Of a DNA stretch of 6,455 bases, positions 1 through 6,455 are shown piece by piece (the first letter of the stretch is position 1; every line of letters starts with the position of its first letter). Position numbers and translations under genes: made by a program. Below the pieces are notes generated by a model, which did not search any database, was not told where the DNA came from, and saw nothing but the letters and a program-made list of their open reading frames with translations. Source of the DNA: Candidatus Pacearchaeota archaeon (GTDB taxonomy: Archaea; Nanoarchaeota; Nanoarchaeia; Pacearchaeales; GW2011-AR1); contig NZAS01000213.1 in the NCBI GenBank assembly GCA_002686195.1, positions 1 through 6,455 on the forward strand, given 5' to 3'.

Positions 1-462
1 AAAAAATGCAGAAAGGCAATCACCCCCAGTATTATATGGAATATATTTTTTATGAGAATAATTGTGTACAATATAATTCATAATATCAGTCCAAACATCT
101 AATTGAGGTTCAGAAGCAGACATAAATTCATTACTTACTATATTTCTATCAAAACTAGTTTGTACACCAATGTTTACTCCTGGTTCAAGTTCTACTCTGT
201 GTAAGCATTTCATATCCATATCTAAGTATAGACCTCCATATACCCAAAGCAAAGCATATCTAAGGAAATCTATTTTTTCAATAAGAAAATTAAATTTACT
301 AACAGTTTCATAATGCCAAGGAACAAGTCTTTTAATTGTAGCCTCAATCTCGTCATTAACATATACTTTTCTATCATATTCGGGCATATATAAAGCCCAA
401 GAATCAATATTCTCTTGATACTGACTATCGTCTTGAGTATACCATGTTTGATGTAAAATCAC
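1..462 (-). CDS. GT32-like (OCH1/Gly_transf_sug) glycosyltransferase, N-terminal part, cut by window edge
   Basis: The 154 visible residues carry the signature of the DXD sugar-binding glycosyltransferases (Gly_transf_sug, GT32/OCH1-like). HQTW lies at residues 4-7. A lysine/aspartate-rich helix leads into the FLRYALLWVYGGLYLDMDM block at 66-84, where YGG (75-77) precedes the metal- and nucleotide-sugar-binding DMD (81-83). Family members transfer a hexose from a nucleotide sugar to a glycan or protein; the acceptor cannot be read here. The product looks cytosolic, with no signal peptide or membrane segment in the visible part. The start is taken as GTG at 462 because a stop lies in frame at 471-469 and the HQTW motif begins almost at once; it shares one base with the TAG of the upstream gene (TAGTG). 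No clear Shine-Dalgarno is present, so translational coupling is likely. The C-terminus lies outside the window. In phages such enzymes may modify host surface glycans or virion proteins; that role is inferred. Confidence 0.85.
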   Translation of the reverse strand, partial: MILHQTWYTQDDSQYQENIDSWALYMPEYDRKVYVNDEIEATIKRLVPWHYETVSKFNFLIEKIDFLRYALLWVYGGLYLDMDMKCLHRVELEPGVNIGVQTSFDRNIVSNEFMSASEPQLDVWTDIMNYIVHNYSHKKYIPYNTGGDCLSAFF

Positions 463-755
463 TATATACTATCAATTAAGACTTGTGTCTTAAGTTGTTC
501 CAAATCAAATTCAAATTTAGCAATAATCATACGAATAGCTTGTATAGCCATTTCTTCTGTCATATCTTCGTTTATGTATTCTTTAATTTGAGTTATTACT
601 TCCTCTCTTCTAACCTCAATTTGTTTATGCAGTTCTTTAACTGTTCTAGCAGGATATATTCCTTCAGAACCTTGAAAATAACTGGGATGAGAAATAGTAG
701 TAGTATCGTCACTACTCATATTTAATGTATTATTTGTTTTCTCATCTTTTTTCAT
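462..755 (-). CDS. hypothetical protein, 97 aa, helical
   Basis: I do not recognise this protein. The first 35 residues are polar and rich in Ser/Thr/Asp, probably disordered. Residues 38-97 are charged and likely helical, with a coiled-coil-like pattern around KELHKQIEVRREEVITQIKEYI and a second amphipathic segment near the C-terminus. There is no signal peptide, membrane span or metal motif. The ATG at 755 has no good ribosome binding site, in contrast to nearly every other gene here; an internal ATG at 719 (residue 13) has none either. Its stop overlaps the GTG start of the glycosyltransferase by one base, so the two are probably co-translated. It lies directly downstream of the structured intergenic region, so an RNA element could control its translation. 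Coding status is supported by the overlap with the next gene and the protein-like composition. Confidence 0.7.
   Translation of the reverse strand: MKKDEKTNNTLNMSSDDTTTISHPSYFQGSEGIYPARTVKELHKQIEVRREEVITQIKEYINEDMTEEMAIQAIRMIIAKFEFDLEQLKTQVLIDSI
476..493 (-). other. 7-bp perfect hairpin before the glycosyltransferase start
   Basis: TTAAGAC and GTCTTAA form a perfect 7-bp stem around a 4-base loop. The hairpin sits inside the last codons of the 97-aa gene, and its near edge is 13 bases upstream of the GTG start of the glycosyltransferase. No T-run follows on the transcribed strand, so it is not an intrinsic terminator. It could affect initiation at the GTG, which lacks a clear Shine-Dalgarno, or it may be chance in AT-rich coding DNA. 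Confidence 0.35.
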
Positions 756-1029
756 AACTAATTTTTATGTTAGCTTTTCAGTGCCCGTGTCGAAGATTTA
801 TATCCGACTTTCATTCATTGTTAGGTATGAGTTAAATTGCTGTAAGGGCAAAGTAATCAAAGATTACTCTAACAAATGAGTGCTTATTGGATTTATAATC
901 TAGTGACCTTGCTTCAAACCTTTCGGTAACCCAGACAAAGTTTATCTATAAACCCTCATCACTCCCAATACGGTTTTAACACCGTTTGCTTATCTTTATG
1001 TGGAGTGCTGTACGGGTTTCTATTTTTAG
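756..1029 (-). ncRNA. gene-free 274-base region with multiple collinear stems; candidate structured RNA
   Basis: No credible reading frame covers this gap. GC is locally near 40%, above much of the surrounding DNA, and inverted repeats are dense. On the minus strand the 5' part nests three perfect stems on one axis: AAACCC 1019-1014 with GGGTTT 955-950, CACTCC 1007-1002 with GGAGTG 965-960, and ACGGT 985-981 with ACCGT 974-970. The 3' part pairs 900-889 with 805-795 (10 bp, one mismatch, one bulge) and 882-869 with 824-812 (12 bp, one mismatch, one bulge). These enclose a 7-bp hairpin (868-862/858-852) and a 4-bp hairpin (851-848/840-837). A possible pseudoknot joins TGCCC 850-846 to GGGCA 786-782. 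I match it to no known family. It may be a trans-acting RNA, possibly a Y-RNA-like partner of the nearby TROVE-type protein, or a cis-regulatory leader of the 97-aa and glycosyltransferase genes. Ends and strand are inferred from gene direction. Confidence 0.5.
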
Positions 1030-1239
1030 TTAGAGCGTAGTAACATTCTTAGCAGCAGGACCCTTAGTTCCTTCACCTACCTCGAATTCTACACTCTGAG
1101 CTTCGAGCAGAGTTTTAAACCCTGTTCCTACGATATCATTTGCATGTACAAATATATCATCGCCACCGTCAATAGTAATAAAGCCATATCCTTTAGATTT
1201 ATTAAACCATTTAACAGTACCTGTTGTTTTGTCAGTCAT
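1030..1239 (-). CDS. cold-shock domain protein (CspA family)
   Basis: This is a single cold-shock domain of 69 residues, the normal length for CspA-type proteins. They bind single-stranded RNA and DNA and melt secondary structure in the cytoplasm. The order is typical: TGTVKWFN at 6-13, RNP1 as KGYGFI at 16-21, RNP2 as DIFVH at 28-32, and the ending GPAAKNV at 60-66. The surface aromatics W11, F20, F30 and H32 are present, so binding should be intact. The ATG at 1239 is preceded by AAGGA at a suitable distance. The gene begins 19 bases after the TROVE/vWA gene and is probably on the same transcript. The structured gap follows directly, so an RNA chaperone lies between a Ro60-like protein and a candidate noncoding RNA. 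Small csp genes are common in phages, and the pairing may be incidental. Confidence 0.95.
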
Positions 1240-1258
1240 GTTATTATTCCTTATTTTA

Positions 1259-2707
1259 TTACCAACTCCAGTCTTCTTCTAATTCCCATGACCTTACATT
1301 TTCTGTGTGTTCAAAAGTTTCAGGTAGATTCTTAAAGTTGACCTTGATAGGCTCTAAGGCCTCTTTCATTACTTCAATTGGATTGAAGTCTTCTACTGCA
1401 AGTATAGCTTTCATTAGTACAGGACTAAATCCTGATACCAAAGCTACACCATCATCATTTGCTTCCGCAGGACTACCATCACACACAGATGTTTGTAAAT
1501 TCCAAAACACCAGTTTAGGTAATTTATAGCCTGCTTCTTTAAACTCTTCTTGTATTAATTGGAAGTGTGGTCTATTTCTTCCCTCTTGACTTTGATCAAA
1601 TTGCATATCACTTAGTACTAATAGCATAGTAGGCATATGCTCTTGCGGAGCATTAAAGCTTACAGCTGTATCAAGTATTAATCTATATGCTCTTTCAAAA
1701 TCAGTATTCATATCCCAATTTGCGTTCACTACTGTAGGTATGTCTTTCTCAAGATTACCAGTTAACTTAACAAATTCAGGTCTTGCTGAAAATGTTAGAA
1801 ATGTATTATTAAACTGTCCTTTATTCCTATTAGCTAGATACATACCCAAAGATACGGATACTAGCAATGGAAGTCCACACATACTACCACTTACATCAGC
1901 TATTGGAAGAATATTCTCCCCTTCTTTAACATAATTTGGGAGATTATTCCATTGTTTTTGAGCAAGTGCCCAATCAACATCTTTTTTAGCACCAGATTGC
2001 CATGATTCTAAATTAGATACAGTTTTAATTACATCATGAGGATAAGAAGCAGAAACCGAGGCTTTACTGGTCTTATCTTCTTTCCAACAAGTAAACCTTT
2101 TTTGATCATGCTTATCAAAGGCTTTACCGTACGTGCGCATAGCGCGGCCAGGAACAGATTGATATTTAATATCATCCCATTGCTTAGAAGACATTTGTTG
2201 TTCAACAGTTTTACTATTTTCTTTAAGCCATACTCTATATTGCTTATTGGTACAAGTAGGAGTCATCAAAATTGATGGTATAGAATCTCTTAGCAATTTT
2301 GCATTAGGTCCCTTTCTAGGTGCCCATTTGCAAGCTAATCGATCTTTATTTCTTATAGCTACAGCATAAACTTCTACTACTTCAGGTATATGAAAGTATC
2401 TTAATAGATCTTTCCAATATCCCAATTCAGCTATTGTTTTTGCATTATCAGCTATAAATTTATCTGGCATATTTTCAAGAATAGTATGAAAGACTTCTCT
2501 TTCGCCTGCTCCCTCGCGCGCCGCTCGGGCCCAAAAAGCTATTTGCGTAGCTACTTGGGGATCTTCTTCGAAGGCTTGCTTGAATTTTTCAAGTACTATA
2601 CCTTTAGAAGAATTACGATAGGCACCTATTTTACTAAATAGGTCTAGACATTTTACTCCAGTATCAGAGTATTGTACTGCATTATTTTCAGTTAGTGTAA
2701 CAGACAT
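1259..2707 (-). CDS. DUF2828-type protein: TROVE/Ro60-like helical region plus von Willebrand A domain
   Basis: The 482-residue protein has the layout of the DUF2828 family, which is related to the Ro60/TROVE proteins. A helical N-terminal half contains the block [17 protein letters not shown] at 57-73, comparable to the RDxRGGKGER segment of TROVE/DUF2828 proteins. A C-terminal vWA domain starts near residue 264. Its metal site looks complete: DVSGSM at 271-276 (D271, S273, S275), T335 in MNTDF, and D367 in LSDMQF. No transmembrane segment or signal peptide is evident. Ro60 is a ring-shaped cytoplasmic protein that binds misfolded RNAs and Y RNAs; RNA binding here is inferred from the family. 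DUF2828 proteins also occur in giant viruses and plants with no established function. The ATG at 2707 follows a good AAGGGG site. The gene opens a new transcription unit after an AT-rich promoter-like region and leads into the cold-shock gene. The family call is from motif recall, not a profile search. Confidence 0.85.
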
Positions 2708-2740
2708 TTTAAGTTCCCCTTATTTAACCGTCGATTTAAG

Positions 2741-2763
2741 ATTATAATTTAATAATATTTATA
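2741..2763 (-). promoter_or_regulatory. candidate promoter for the TROVE/vWA gene
   Basis: The 114-base gap upstream of the DUF2828 gene contains TATAAATA at 2763-2756, identical to the -10 consensus of T4-type late promoters, and the perfect sigma-70 -10 hexamer TATAAT at 2746-2741. Neither has a good -35 box at the expected distance; the nearest is TTGCAC, about 23 bases upstream of TATAAT. Late T4-type promoters need no -35. The stretch is almost pure A/T, so matches by chance are likely, but position and orientation fit a promoter about 35-50 bases upstream of the ATG. Confidence 0.4.
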
Positions 2764-2780
2764 TATATTGTGCAAGCTTT

Positions 2781-2815
2781 TTATGCGGAGAATAATTTAA
2801 TTATTCTCCGCATAA
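2781..2815 (-). other. 16-bp perfect hairpin between the two transcription units
   Basis: Positions 2781-2796 and 2800-2815 are perfect reverse complements around a 3-base loop; the stem core is GCGGAGAATAAT. It starts seven bases after the stop codon of the SSB-like gene. On the transcribed strand it is followed by AAAAAGC rather than T-residues, so it is not a canonical intrinsic terminator. The T-run lies on its other side. It may act as a 3'-end stabilising or processing hairpin, a U-tract-less terminator, or a protein-binding palindrome. This is the strongest single inverted repeat in the window. Confidence 0.8.
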
Positions 2816-2821
2816 TGGAAG

Positions 2822-3091
2822 TTAGAACAATTCTGTTTGCTCTGTTGCGGCTTCCTCTACTTCTGATGAGACAGCATCAGATGCTTCAGATGAAGCATCA
2901 TCAGCTACTACTAGAGAAGTAGCTCCAGAAATGAATGAGTTACCATTCTTATCTGATTTAGTCCATCCAGAAATACGATGCTCAACCTCACCAAGGGTTA
3001 AAGTACCGTTCCAATCTGGTTGGTTTGTTCCAGGTTGTCTCTTAGTGTTCTTAAAAAGAACAACAGAACCTGTTTTTGTGTATTTAGGCAT
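2822..3091 (-). CDS. small SSB-like protein with acidic tail (putative)
   Basis: Residues 6-57 (KTGSVVLFKN...PDWNGTLTL...EHRISGWTKSDKNGNSFIS) resemble a widespread small phage and bacterial family with the pattern GxLFKN..K....PDYTG.....G.EYRLSAW.K..K.G..F.SL. It is probably a compact beta-rich, OB-like fold. Residues 61-89 form a low-complexity acidic tail of Asp, Glu, Ser and Ala ending in the hydrophobic ELF. That arrangement recalls the disordered acidic tail of single-stranded DNA-binding proteins, which recruits partners through a terminal Phe. Nucleic-acid binding is therefore a reasonable guess, not proven. The ATG at 3091 has a near-perfect AAGGAGGT site, so strong expression is likely. 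The gene follows the AAA+ ATPase by 27 bases and precedes the 16-bp hairpin that closes the unit. It may serve in replication or repair, or work with the ATPase. Confidence 0.7.
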   Translation of the reverse strand: MPKYTKTGSVVLFKNTKRQPGTNQPDWNGTLTLGEVEHRISGWTKSDKNGNSFISGATSLVVADDASSEASDAVSSEVEEAATEQTELF

Positions 3092-3118
3092 AAATACCTC
3101 CTTTGTTAGGGTTACGTA

Positions 3119-4426
3119 CTAAAATGGCAATCTATCGCCATTATCATCATAGTTTTTATGAAAAGGGGGTTCAAATCCCATTTTCTGTTTGTTTCCTTCA
3201 ATCATAAGACTATTGTCTTCAGCAAATTTATATGCTTCTGATAAATCTTTTGTTAATTTTGTAGAAACTTCGTTAATCGTAGCAATACTCATTGATAATT
3301 GATTACTTGCACAATATGCTCTAGCCGAATTTGCCAATTCTTTAATCTGTGCACCAGTCATACCTGATACAACAGCTGTTAACTTAATATTGTTTCTTTT
3401 ATTATACTTTAGATCTTTCCCAAAATACAATTGTGCACATTCTAATGCATAGTGTCCCTCAAGGGGACCTACTTGATAAAGTCTATCAATACGTCCAGGT
3501 CGCTTTAGCACACGTGGTTCTACTCTTTCTGGATGATTTGTAGTCATAATTACATAAGCACCCTTCTTATTAGCTGGAGTATCGGCGCCGTCTAAGAAGT
3601 TCAATACTGAACTATGTGTATTAGATAAGGCTGCCTCAGCGTCCTCTAAAATAACAACAGTAGGCACAGAATATTTAGCACATTTTAATAAATGCATATA
3701 AGCTGCCTCTAATTCAGTGCATACAGCAACACAATATTCTTTAGAATATTCTCGTGCAACTTTAATACACATGCTTGTTTTACCGGTTCCCGGAGGCCCC
3801 ACAAGCATTGATTTTCGAATACCAGGCATTCCATATCGAGTAAATATAGAAACATTATTAAAGAAGAAATCCATATCTTTATTTAATTCAACAACAGCGG
3901 GGTGTATCGTTTCAATTAGTGAAGGATGATCTACCTTTTCATATCCTAATCCAAATTGTCCAGTAAATGCCTTAAAAAACCCTGCTTTGGGTTTAGCACT
4001 ATACTGTCTTTTCTTGTACATTAATTTCTTAAAATTATACAGAACAAGAGATTCTGTAGCTATTAAAGATTCAATAGTTTGATTTCTCCCAAACCCAGTA
4101 ATATACCAAGTTACCAGCATAATAGTATTATCACTAAATTCTATTTTAAAGGTTCCTTGTCGTCCCTCATATTTCAAAGTATTCTTTTTATATTTAACTG
4201 GTACTGCTCCCCATACAATTGGGGCAAGTTCTTTATCTGGAATAGGTATAATATCGGTAATATGAAAAGACTTAGGTTTAAATCTTTGTGCGTGACTCCG
4301 TAATTCTTTCATAGTACGCCAATTTAAATTAGTATCTTGTTCAACTATTACAAACCCAGATTTTGGAACATATCCTTTATATGTTTTTACTAGATATTTA
4401 GCTGAAACATTTATTTTTGTAGCCAT
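3119..4426 (-). CDS. BCS1-like AAA+ ATPase
   Basis: The 435-residue protein carries a complete AAA+ module in its second half. Walker A is GPPGTGKT at 210-217. Walker B is VVILEDAEA at 257-265, the E-D order typical of the BCS1 group. Sensor 1 is MTTNHPERVEP at 294-304, and the arginine finger lies in RPGRID at 309-314. A helical lid with MTGAQIKEL (356-364) stands where sensor 2 sits. Residues 1-200 form a beta-rich region unlike the mitochondrial BCS1 N-terminus, with no clear membrane span, so the enzyme is probably soluble. Such proteins are hexameric remodelling ATPases that pull on protein or nucleoprotein substrates; the substrate is unknown here. The ATG at 4426 shares one base with the preceding TAA (TAATG) and has a very strong AAGGAGGTGA site. 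The nearby vWA protein is a possible partner, since AAA+ and vWA proteins often work in pairs, though usually with MoxR-type ATPases. Confidence 0.92.
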   Translation of the reverse strand: MATKINVSAKYLVKTYKGYVPKSGFVIVEQDTNLNWRTMKELRSHAQRFKPKSFHITDIIPIPDKELAPIVWGAVPVKYKKNTLKYEGRQGTFKIEFSDNTIMLVTWYITGFGRNQTIESLIATESLVLYNFKKLMYKKRQYSAKPKAGFFKAFTGQFGLGYEKVDHPSLIETIHPAVVELNKDMDFFFNNVSIFTRYGMPGIRKSMLVGPPGTGKTSMCIKVAREYSKEYCVAVCTELEAAYMHLLKCAKYSVPTVVILEDAEAALSNTHSSVLNFLDGADTPANKKGAYVIMTTNHPERVEPRVLKRPGRIDRLYQVGPLEGHYALECAQLYFGKDLKYNKRNNIKLTAVVSGMTGAQIKELANSARAYCASNQLSMSIATINEVSTKLTKDLSEAYKFAEDNSLMIEGNKQKMGFEPPFHKNYDDNGDRLPF

Positions 4427-5638: not shown

Positions 5639-5920
5639 TTATAACGCATTTTTAATACTTTTATAACGTCTTCTATTAACTCTTTCTTTCATTTCCCGTT
5701 CAAGAAATGATTTAATACCATCATACAATACTTGTCGTATATCAGCTGATAAATATTTCATTATATCATAATCTTCATCAGGATATCCAGAAGACCACTT
5801 ATGTGCCCATTTATCTCGAAGCATCTTTACAAACTCTTCCTCCAATTCTTTTGTCAAGCGTAAATGCTTCTCATCAGTATACACATGTTCTTTATAGAGC
5901 TTAGGTAATTCGTTGTCCAT
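5639..5920 (-). CDS. hypothetical protein, member of local paralogue family (copy 3)
   Basis: The start is set at ATG 5920 (MDNELPKLYKEH). The frame is open to a TTG at 5935 and an ATG at 5926, but the 5920 start has GAGAT at a good distance and lines up residue for residue with the start chosen for the adjacent paralogue. The 93-residue product is highly charged and mainly helical, with LTKELEEEFVKMLRDKW near 22-38 and KYLSADIRQVLYDGIKSFLEREMKER near 55-80. The tail is basic (RRRYKSIKNAL). The segment KYLSADIRQVL... to KER is identical at DNA level to the partial gene at the window end. The gene overlaps the previous one by 20 bases. No function is recognised; the repeated small genes resemble the rapidly duplicating accessory genes of phage early regions. 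Confidence 0.75.
   Translation of the reverse strand: MDNELPKLYKEHVYTDEKHLRLTKELEEEFVKMLRDKWAHKWSSGYPDEDYDIMKYLSADIRQVLYDGIKSFLEREMKERVNRRRYKSIKNAL
5680..5760. repeat. 81-bp direct repeat, copy A
   Basis: This stretch is identical, base for base, to 6375-6455 (offset 695). It lies inside the copy-3 gene and encodes KYLSADIRQVLYDGIKSF plus LEREMKER in the same frame as in the other copy. Identity breaks at 5679 (A) against 6374 (G); the other end cannot be seen because copy B reaches the window edge. Perfect identity, including third codon positions, implies a recent duplication, gene conversion or an assembly effect. Confidence 0.97.
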
Positions 5921-6161: not shown

Positions 6162-6455
6162 CTTGTTTCCTTTCATTATTGTTTAACTCCTTATTTTTCC
6201 GTACCGTACGGAAATTTCCGTACTTTCCGTACTGTGTGGAGTTTGCCATAGATTCTATTTCATCCTGCGTACTAGGCCACTCGTGCTCATCATCTACATC
6301 ACGTGCATCTTGTGCATCAAGTGCTTCTTGATGTGCAAGTGCTTTTTGATGTTCAATTGCTTCTTCTCCAGCAGCTCTTTCTTTCATTTCCCGTTCAAGA
6401 AATGATTTAATACCATCATACAATACTTGTCGTATATCAGCTGATAAATATTTCA
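6136..6455 (-). CDS. hypothetical protein, paralogue family (copy 1), 5' end outside the window
   Basis: The frame is open from the window edge, and the ATG at 6423 is not the true start because homologous coding sequence continues upstream of it. The visible 106 residues begin with KYLSADIRQVLYDGIKSF, identical to copy 3. After EMKER the sequence diverges into an alanine/glutamate/histidine/glutamine-rich stretch of six-residue repeats (about residues 27-50). An acidic DVDDEHE and a polar basic tail ending NNNERKQDGKTNESI follow. Relative to copy 3 it therefore carries a replaced or extended C-terminus. The last 100 bases overlap the operator-like TTCCGTAC cluster and the start of copy 2. 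No function recognised. Confidence 0.72.
   Translation of the reverse strand, partial: KYLSADIRQVLYDGIKSFLEREMKERAAGEEAIEHQKALAHQEALDAQDARDVDDEHEWPSTQDEIESMANSTQYGKYGNFRTVRKNKELNNNERKQDGKTNESI
6197..6232. promoter_or_regulatory. cluster of four TTCCGTAC half-sites including an 18-bp perfect palindrome
   Basis: TTCCGTAC occurs at 6197-6204, inverted at 6206-6213, and again direct at 6216-6223 and 6225-6232. The middle two form a perfect 18-bp palindrome centred between 6214 and 6215. The cluster lies within the 3' end of copy 1 and ends 36 bases upstream of the copy-2 start at 6161. Spaced inverted and direct half-sites suggest binding by a dimeric protein, such as an operator or iteron-like site; the winged-helix protein in this window is one candidate, without direct evidence. 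The same bases encode YGKYGNFRTVRK, so coding repetition may explain part of the pattern. Confidence 0.5.
6303..6356. repeat. three imperfect 18-bp tandem repeats encoding six-residue repeats
   Basis: Units at 6303-6320, 6321-6338 and 6339-6356 share the form GTGCTTCTTGATGTGCAA with a few changes; a partial fourth unit starts at 6357. In the copy-1 gene they encode successive hexads such as AIEHQK, ALAHQE and ALDAQD, likely a single long helix. The unit length is a multiple of three, so copy number can change without breaking the frame. This region is absent from copy 3, whose sequence diverges just before it. Confidence 0.75.
6375..6455. repeat. 81-bp direct repeat, copy B (runs to window edge)
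   Basis: Identical to 5680-5760. It lies inside the copy-1 partial gene and stops only because the window ends, so the true repeat may be longer. If the window edge is also a contig end, an exact repeat there is what a short-read assembler leaves when it cannot resolve a duplication. In that case the sequence beyond is uncertain. Confidence 0.95.

Follow-up and report, generated by a model that had tools for sequence, protein, structure and literature searches.

Does the gene for a Ro60-like protein in a short DNA contig come with an RNA partner of its own? The question is raised by contig NZAS01000213.1 (assembly GCA_002686195.1, filed under Candidatus Pacearchaeota archaeon), whose analysed stretch of 6,455 nucleotides (nt) is referred to here as the window. 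Three minus-strand open reading frames (ORFs) follow one another: the first of 482 amino acids, the second of 69 amino acids after a spacer of 19 nt, and the third, of 97 amino acids, starting at position 755. As no ORF lies between 1030 and 755, the gap at 1029-756 comprises 274 nt without a gene. An initial annotation had read the first two ORFs and the gap as one cluster of a Ro60-like protein, a CspA-type cold-shock protein and a structured RNA of the Y RNA type. Y RNAs have already been reported in phages by others. The analysis described here indicates that the window probably encodes a phage Ro-type ribonucleoprotein, in which a DUF2828 Ro60-like protein is accompanied by two noncoding RNA units of Y-RNA-like type, encoded just downstream of its gene. 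The computed basis of this reading is the Ro fold, two conserved units, their recurrence beside the gene family or in phages that carry it, and an interchangeable interior. The source of the window seems to be a virus of bacteria (phage) carrying its own version of Ro60.

The Ro-like protein

The 482-amino acid protein is matched by the Pfam profiles DUF7788 (1.7e-45) and DUF2828 (7.7e-28), and the cut-offs of the DUF2828 family (PF11443/PF25043) are exceeded at 97.9 versus 29 bits and 155.5 versus 27.1 bits. The profile phrog_850, “RNA-binding protein”, matches it at 4.3e-106. Residues D271, S273, S275, T335 and D367, which we take to form the metal ion-dependent adhesion site (MIDAS), are unchanged throughout a 22-row alignment (the window protein and 21 relatives), so that the DUF2828-type protein with an intact MIDAS that had been annotated is borne out. 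Relatives were found by tblastn in 674 of 50,697 phage records, and there are at least 6,401 homologues among 7,999 scored database candidates.

Likeness to Ro60 emerges at the level of structure. The AlphaFold2 model, built from the 22-row alignment (mean predicted local distance difference test score, pLDDT, 75.7; predicted template modelling score, pTM, 0.66), contains helical repeats at residues 19-254 and a vWA domain at 266-441. A fold search of the PDB with this model returned five matches at E <= 0.001, all of them Ro60/TROVE structures; the best alignments span residues 18-457 at 12-17% identity, with 9kop and 9l5y as the top two rows. The protein is therefore predicted to have the Ro fold, a helical-repeat ring with a vWA domain, at low identity. 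Unlike the fold search, a search of the PDB by sequence profile found no Ro structure (best E 0.064), and the Pfam TROVE profile gave no match at E <= 1, DUF7788 and DUF2828 being the only profiles that did. The window protein thus shares the fold of the Ro60/TROVE superfamily, whereas TROVE membership by profile, which the initial annotation had suggested, was not obtained.

Among phage proteins, the Ro60 of Thermus phage phiLo (named in the title of PDB 9l5y; also 9kop) is 17% identical to the window protein. The Ro-like RNA binding proteins annotated in mycobacteriophages belong to the same family by tblastn, with 28-32% identity.

Two RNA units in the gap

When folded as RNA, the gap reaches -63.4 kcal/mol against -49.0 +/- 4.4 in shuffles (n=200; z -3.25), with none of the 200 as low. 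No tRNA was reported in it by ARAGORN, and Rfam gave no match at the gathering level; the best sub-threshold match by bits was Dicty_Class_I_RNA (788-850, 23.7 bits, E 0.55). For YrlA (RF02553), which the initial annotation had put forward for comparison, the window has no row at E <= 5.

Two covariance models, R2 and R3, were built from relatives with the window excluded. Each finds one of two units in the gap as its best match in the window and the other as its second best (Table 1). In both units a closing helix has the motif UACAGCA immediately within it on the 5′ side, and its 3′ strand is followed by a GNRA mini-hairpin. Unit 1 ends in GGGUU-ACCGAAAGG and unit 2 in GGGCA-CUGAAAAG, and both lack the AAG start and CUGU end of a second form described below. 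Positions 838-850 of unit 2 plus the next base contain CCUUACAGCAA exactly.

A third R3 match lies at 497-597 on the minus strand, inside the orphan 97-amino acid ORF (17.8 bits, E 0.0037).

Table 1. Coordinates of protein genes and RNA elements in the window
Feature	Position	Strand	Basis
Ro60-like protein (DUF2828 + DUF7788), helical repeats + vWA domain	1259..2707	minus	Pfam, PHROG, alignment, fold search
CspA-type cold-shock protein, 69 aa	1030..1239	minus	Pfam CSD 1e-25
RNA unit 1 (large form)	900..1021	minus	R3, 50 bits, E 6.8e-11
Unit 1 closing helix P2, 5′ strand AACCC	1014..1018	minus	sequence, R3
Unit 1 ACAGCA motif	1006..1011	minus	sequence; CAGCA invariant in alignment A5
Unit 1 interior hairpin CACUCC...GGGAGUG	960..1007	minus	gap fold
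Unit 1 helix H2, 5′ strand CUUUG	936..940	minus	cognate-flank pairing
Unit 1 P2 3′ strand GGGUU	928..932	minus	sequence, R3
Unit 1 GNRA mini-hairpin ACC-GAAA-GGU	918..927	minus	sequence, relatives’ alignment
Unit 1 helix H2, 3′ strand CAAGG	907..911	minus	cognate-flank pairing
RNA unit 2	~769..873	minus	R2 at 765-860, 28.3 bits, E 9.8e-6; R3 at 755-852, 2.6e-4
Unit 2 outer helix GUUAG / CUAAC	873-869 / 773-769	minus	read from sequence alone
Unit 2 P2 5′ strand UGCCC (850-846), UU, ACAGCA (843-838)	838..850	minus	sequence, R2
Unit 2 P2 3′ strand GGGCA (786-782) + mini-hairpin CUGAAAAG (781-774)		minus	sequence, R2

GNRA-tailed units in relatives

The relatives are 43 DUF2828 loci taken from IMG/VR. 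The arrangement AACCC-n-ACAGCA ... GGGUU-ACCG.AAGG recurs after the Ro gene in L001, L003, L004, L007 and L009, and in L006 after one more ORF. A second repeat, GGUC-/AGUC-nn-ACAGCAC ... GAC[C/U]-ACCGAAAGG, comes next in L001, L003, L004, L006 and L009; it is missing from L007. An exact 19-mer search returned six contigs, with a Ro gene within ~1.2 kb in five of them (L045 being on the L006 contig); in the sixth, a fragment of 108 kb, no Ro gene was found.

In the large form, the helix that encloses the GNRA hairpin (H2) begins between the strands of P2, and the two helices therefore cross as a pseudoknot. H2 and the outer helix of the small form (P1) played no part in the selection of units. 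Cognate flanks pair better than non-cognate ones for H2 (11 units) and for P1 (15 units), and none of 10,000 permutations was as good in either case; close relatives are among these units, which makes the permutations less than fully independent. In the 11-row alignment A4, 79.9% of cells pair (66.7% when shuffled) and the covariation score is 0.392 (0.169 when shuffled), values reached by none of 500 shuffles. P1 forms in just 59.7% of cells; on the measure “further standard pair types”, 73 of the 500 shuffles reached the observed value. Alignment A5 has eight rows, two L007 units with tRNA-like cores being left out.

R2 matches 12 of 29 IMG/VR records at E <= 0.01, of which seven gave training rows and five are weak. 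R3 matches eight of 26 records, seven of them training records, and none of seven Ro-less control phages. The comparison of gaps suggested by the initial annotation thus yielded repeated, structured units conserved beside the gene in relatives: homologous gaps are paired and units lie near DUF2828 genes, the reverse of two outcomes that it had listed as counting against it. As judged from sequence comparison, the general hallmark of Y RNAs, a conserved structured RNA beside a Ro gene with a closing helix, appears to be present in the window.

The CUGU-ended form and its tie to the Ro gene

In a sister form, the end CUGU replaces the GNRA tail. Other phages commonly have this form next to their Ro gene, and FelixO1, KVP40, LAh_6, CP30A and WIL-1 are examples of phages in which it occurs. 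Its consensus is AAG-stem-UUACAGCAA ... A-rich ... stem′-CUGU. Units were scanned at a score >= 17 plus a recognised tail in 64 sequences, with L044, L045, L046, L049 and L068 excluded as duplicates and with a descriptor tuned on the scanned loci themselves; 73 units lie on the Ro strand and seven on the other. Some of these rows, e.g., L039 and L040, may be due to chance. In alignment A3 (24 of the 26 listed sister-form units), all 168 cells pair and double changes occur at six of seven pairs, with “further standard pair types” not above shuffles (385/500). G, CAGCA, C and G are invariant, A and U are nearly so, and the final U is a majority only.

On whole records, model R1 of this form matches 15 of 18 named DUF2828 phages at E <= 0.1, and 15 of 29 IMG/VR records at E <= 0.01. 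Twelve of the named phages gave no training row, and nine of these match (KVP40, CP30A, Aeh1, OC, S-CoN_Ph6, DLP_6, phiM12, Ci1, UPIE); in the three that are missed (FADO, phiSHEF16, B23) a unit near the Ro gene was recognised by eye. Within 1.5 kb of the Ro gene lie four of the 19 matches in the nine held-out records (0.52 expected) and 21 of 27 in the six records with training rows. R1 finds nothing in the Ro-less phages T4, lambda, SPO1, phiKZ, S-PM2, RB49 and K. The rnaC and rnaD RNAs of T4 were considered as relatives and rejected, as neither R1 nor R3 matches T4. Four tandem R1 units were seen in Ochrobactrum phage OC (MT028491, 157014-157699), ~50 kb from its Ro gene.

The link was also approached with a blind pattern, AAGG-N4-UUACAGCAA-N25..55-N4-CCUGUU, which requires no stem at N4 and no Ro gene. 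Among viral contigs it gave 29 matches in 28 contigs, and the four free positions are all complementary in 23 of the 29, against 2% expected. DUF2828 is present in 17 of 22 contigs with a complementary stem, including 13 of 13 of those >= 50 kb, and in none of six stemless contigs (Fisher p 0.0012). Several of these contigs are close relatives and thus not independent: one unit is common to five of them and another to two, while L094 equals L016, which had already been obtained through Ro. Among prokaryotes (one genome each, 84,980 bacterial and archaeal species), 92 matches included two that are complementary, which is the chance level, and none with a Ro gene in the flanks examined. The pattern results tie the sister-form unit to phages with a Ro-like gene, and phages with the RNA carry the gene far above chance. 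Phage Ro proteins, many of them annotated as hypothetical or RNA-binding, thereby gain concrete candidate RNA partners, some of them in phages that laboratories can grow.

tRNA-like interiors

Some long units appear to enclose permuted tRNA-like (YrlA-like) cores. Sub-threshold matches to RF02553 occur <= 2 kb from Ro genes in L047, L007, MsGreen, UPIE, phiM12 and phiSHEF16, at 29-47 bits; the strongest scores 47.4 bits against a cut-off of 69, so that the gathering score is reached in none of 26 records. A closing helix bearing CAGC[A/G] at the inner 5′ end surrounds seven of eight inspected matches, with both forms represented; the eighth (L059 1268) has no enclosing unit. Because YrlA also matches control genomes weakly, the argument is carried by enclosure and position and not by score. 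In L007, the unit directly after the Ro gene has the ends of window unit 1 (AACCC...GGGUUACCG.AAGG) and a probable tRNA mimic inside. Inspection of phiSHEF16 by eye shows three tandem units upstream of its Ro gene, two of them containing a tRNA and one plain. In the mycobacteriophages MsGreen and UPIE, units and YrlA-like RNAs directly follow the Ro-like gene, the units having Class I-type ends (see below) where those of the window have GNRA tails.

The unit ends are constant and the interior is exchangeable. This is as expected if the ends carry a protein-binding site, and we infer from the sequences that they may be the site bound by the Ro protein. One RNA end module appears to be common to tRNA-mimicking YrlA-like RNAs and short Class I-like RNAs. 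The comparison with the bacterial Ro (Rsr)-YrlA system also brings out differences: the UACAGCA end module is absent from the printed YrlA consensus, the window units are without a tRNA-like core, and the window protein is of the DUF2828 and not the Pfam TROVE type. The initial assignment to the Y RNA/YrlA type thus stood in part, through the probable tRNA mimics inside relatives’ units; the window RNA itself has no tRNA-like module, as that annotation had remarked.

Unusual tRNA-like matches, whose anticodon arm is interrupted by a long insert, occur in L064 4839-4948 (B23) and L066 4852-4966 (Ci1); the Ci1 insert contains UACAGCAA, as if the same RNA had been opened at the acceptor instead. 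Hairpins with the loop CUUGUAA are found in unit interiors of L010 1931, L026 1904, L037 3398 and L024 3775, and are presumably comparable to a tRNA-Thr anticodon arm.

Likeness to Dictyostelium Class I RNAs

According to a 2021 Genome Research account (PMC7919456), Class I RNAs are ~60 nt long, start with AAG and end with CUGU; the two ends are held together by a short stem, next to whose 5′ strand lies an 11-nt motif, and the interior varies. The account reports none outside Dictyostelia. The consensus of the short phage units is alike in stem, 11-nt motif, AAG/CUGU ends, variable interior, length and high copy number, with single units deviating: FelixO1 has CUGG and MsGreen CAGU where Class I RNAs have CUGU, and the window units have GNRA tails. 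The 24-unit alignment had been selected for stem and tail; the blind AAGG/CCUGUU pattern still gives its 23 complementary stems in 29. The sequence CCUUACAGCAA in window unit 2 is what we take to be the Class I 11-nt motif, and the printed RF01414 consensus agrees.

With the Class I model RF01414, alignments to phage units read G-stem-CUUACAGCAA...CUG. None of 20 phage records reaches the gathering score of 41.5 (best phage 29.8 bits, window 23.7), and at E <= 1 the model matches 16 of the 20 as well as seven of 14 control genomes. Membership of RF01414 is not claimed because no match exceeds the gathering score and half of the control genomes match weakly. Eight of nine sub-threshold matches in LAh_6 lie within ~4.5 kb of the Ro gene, and all four in FelixO1 within 1.2 kb; the other 18 records have weak matches, mostly scattered, or none. 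Among the matches listed in searches of the open-licence literature, no report of a link between phages, Class I RNA and Ro was found.

Leader units and a proposed mechanism

A unit ends <= 22 nt from the Ro start codon in 13 of 57 loci with a Ro start in the DNA examined (15 rows, several from close relatives; one L061 row relies on an upstream ATG). In several of these leader units, the tail CUG-AAAGG precedes the ATG and merges with a Shine–Dalgarno-like stretch. The window, as read from its sequence, has no leader unit at its Ro gene. The simplest reading of the leader units is autoregulation of Ro.

In the proposed mechanism, the constant terminal module (closing helix, UACAGCA and GNRA hairpin, or the AAG...CUGU form) would be gripped by the Ro-like protein. 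The variable interior, a tRNA mimic in some relatives and hairpins in the window, would occupy or gate the RNA-binding ring of the protein, or might alternatively bring in client tRNAs together with enzymes of repair. Units that overlap the ribosome-binding region of the Ro gene would let the protein repress its own synthesis. The likely task during infection is the protection or repair of tRNA or other RNA, because units are often located among phage tRNA genes (FelixO1, L007 and others). Listeria phage WIL-1 has an annotated tRNA splicing ligase ~1.3 kb from its Ro gene. A jumbo-phage survey, in its treatment of TROVE proteins, places those of phages beside RNA-repair enzymes and describes cellular ones as forming RNA-repair platforms with a tRNA-like partner (PMC7824862). 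WIL-1 also has Class I-like units, and a match resembling ROOL RNA was observed at L060 1435-1986, ~1 kb upstream of its Ro gene (87 bits, cut-off 99.1).

Weighing the alternatives

A number of observations weigh against the ribonucleoprotein reading or limit its reach. Units at a score >= 17 were found in 29 of the 43 IMG/VR DUF2828 loci, in the DNA around the gene. L002, whose Ro protein is 53% identical to that of the window, has no unit by any model, and L005 (52%) has only a weak R2 match (1.1e-3). Conversely, the 108-kb fragment G013 (L048, IMGVR_UViG_3300020477_001475) has R2 and R3 units, and no DUF2828 gene was found in it. In six held-out named phages, every R1 match is ~7 to 52 kb from the Ro gene, and the Ro-less control phages number only seven. 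Because the first scans already selected for the helix, the covariation in them is partly circular. Eleven of 14 control genomes also have sub-threshold YrlA matches at E <= 0.1. In its lowest-energy fold, computed with a program that cannot show pseudoknots, the gap forms a helix between CCCGU (unit 1) and ACGGG (unit 2) in place of both P2 helices; as this fold differs, the comparative structure rests on the relatives. R1 has no significant match in the window (best E 0.32), for which reason the window units are not filed as the Class I form; what appears to join the GNRA form to it is the motif, the position and the tRNA-like interiors common to both, with no single model covering the two.

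Three other accounts of the units compete with a trans-acting particle. They might act only in cis, as leader operators, mRNA processing sites or 3′ stabilisers, with Ro binding mRNA and no Y RNA particle formed. The leader units, with their purine-rich, Shine–Dalgarno-like spacer, would suit this, as would the position of the window units between two same-strand ORFs, with no promoter-like site found by consensus scan on the minus strand at 400-1259. Cis control, however, would not require the tandem arrays of LAh_6, FelixO1 and OC (four to seven units each, most of them not in leaders), the tRNA mimics inside units or the units 7 to 52 kb from Ro, and this account is considered unlikely. That the units are parts of tRNA clusters, as processing signals or degenerate tRNAs, with Ro genes as fellow residents and only indirectly linked, draws on the many units among tRNA genes. 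It is rendered very improbable by the failure of R1 in all seven Ro-less phages, including T4 with its tRNA cluster, by Ro genes flanked by units in S-CoN_Ph6, UPIE, MsGreen, CP30A and WIL-1, and by DUF2828 in every long pattern-found contig with a complementary stem. Chance stems in an ordinary gap would be no surprise in a window that is AT-rich, as short stems are common in such DNA; the folding energy speaks against them, and the matches to models from other contigs (Table 1) refute that account. What had been annotated as a structured, gene-free gap is thus upheld.

The Class I likeness allows two readings. The phage Ro-associated units and the Class I RNAs could tentatively be placed in one family of Y-RNA-like RNAs that partner Ro-superfamily (DUF2828-type) proteins. 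Such a family would have passed between phages and amoebae, or the symbionts of amoebae, and would combine a protein-gripped UACAGCA module with a swappable interior. If so, the abundant Class I RNAs, which influence development in amoebae, would be Ro-type ribonucleoproteins, and phages would use the same module for autoregulation of the Ro gene. The phage units in any case offer candidate relatives, and a protein family to seek, for the Class I RNAs, which were reported as unique to social amoebae. That the two merely converged on a short motif, being unrelated and having different protein partners, is a strong possibility, just short of an even chance. The RF01414 scores, the control genomes and the scatter of matches outside LAh_6 and FelixO1 favour convergence, as does the Class I binder named in the cited account, Rnp1A, an RNA recognition motif (RRM) protein (PMC7919456). 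The joint agreement of stem, motif and both termini, and the crowding of LAh_6 and FelixO1 matches near Ro, are less easily accommodated by it.

The cold-shock gene and flanking DNA

The CspA-type gene was confirmed where it had been annotated. A cold-shock gene lies near the Ro gene in one of 43 related loci (L027 alone), and for this reason it is a neighbour that is unlikely to be integral to the system; of the cluster first envisaged, the pairing of Ro gene and RNA remains. When the gap and cold-shock gene were used together as a DNA query against phage records, the cold-shock part alone aligned among the matches listed (20 of 45 records). A search for relatives of the 97-amino acid product found only itself. 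Direct searches for close relatives of the window gave nothing usable, whether in IMG/VR (by protein or RNA pattern) or, by protein alignment, in bacterial genomes. Promoter and terminator scans of 400-3200 told little: five promoter-like sites were seen where 10.6 were expected, and the minus strand had no terminator-like site.

Two repeats were also seen. An inverted repeat, TTATGCGGAGAATAATT/AATTATTCTCCGCATAA, is located at 2781-2815 between a single-stranded DNA-binding protein (SSB)-like gene and the Ro gene, without a T run. An exact direct repeat of 81 nt occupies 5680-5760 and 6375-6455, the second copy coinciding with the end of the window, a pattern typical of an assembly that breaks off inside a repeat.
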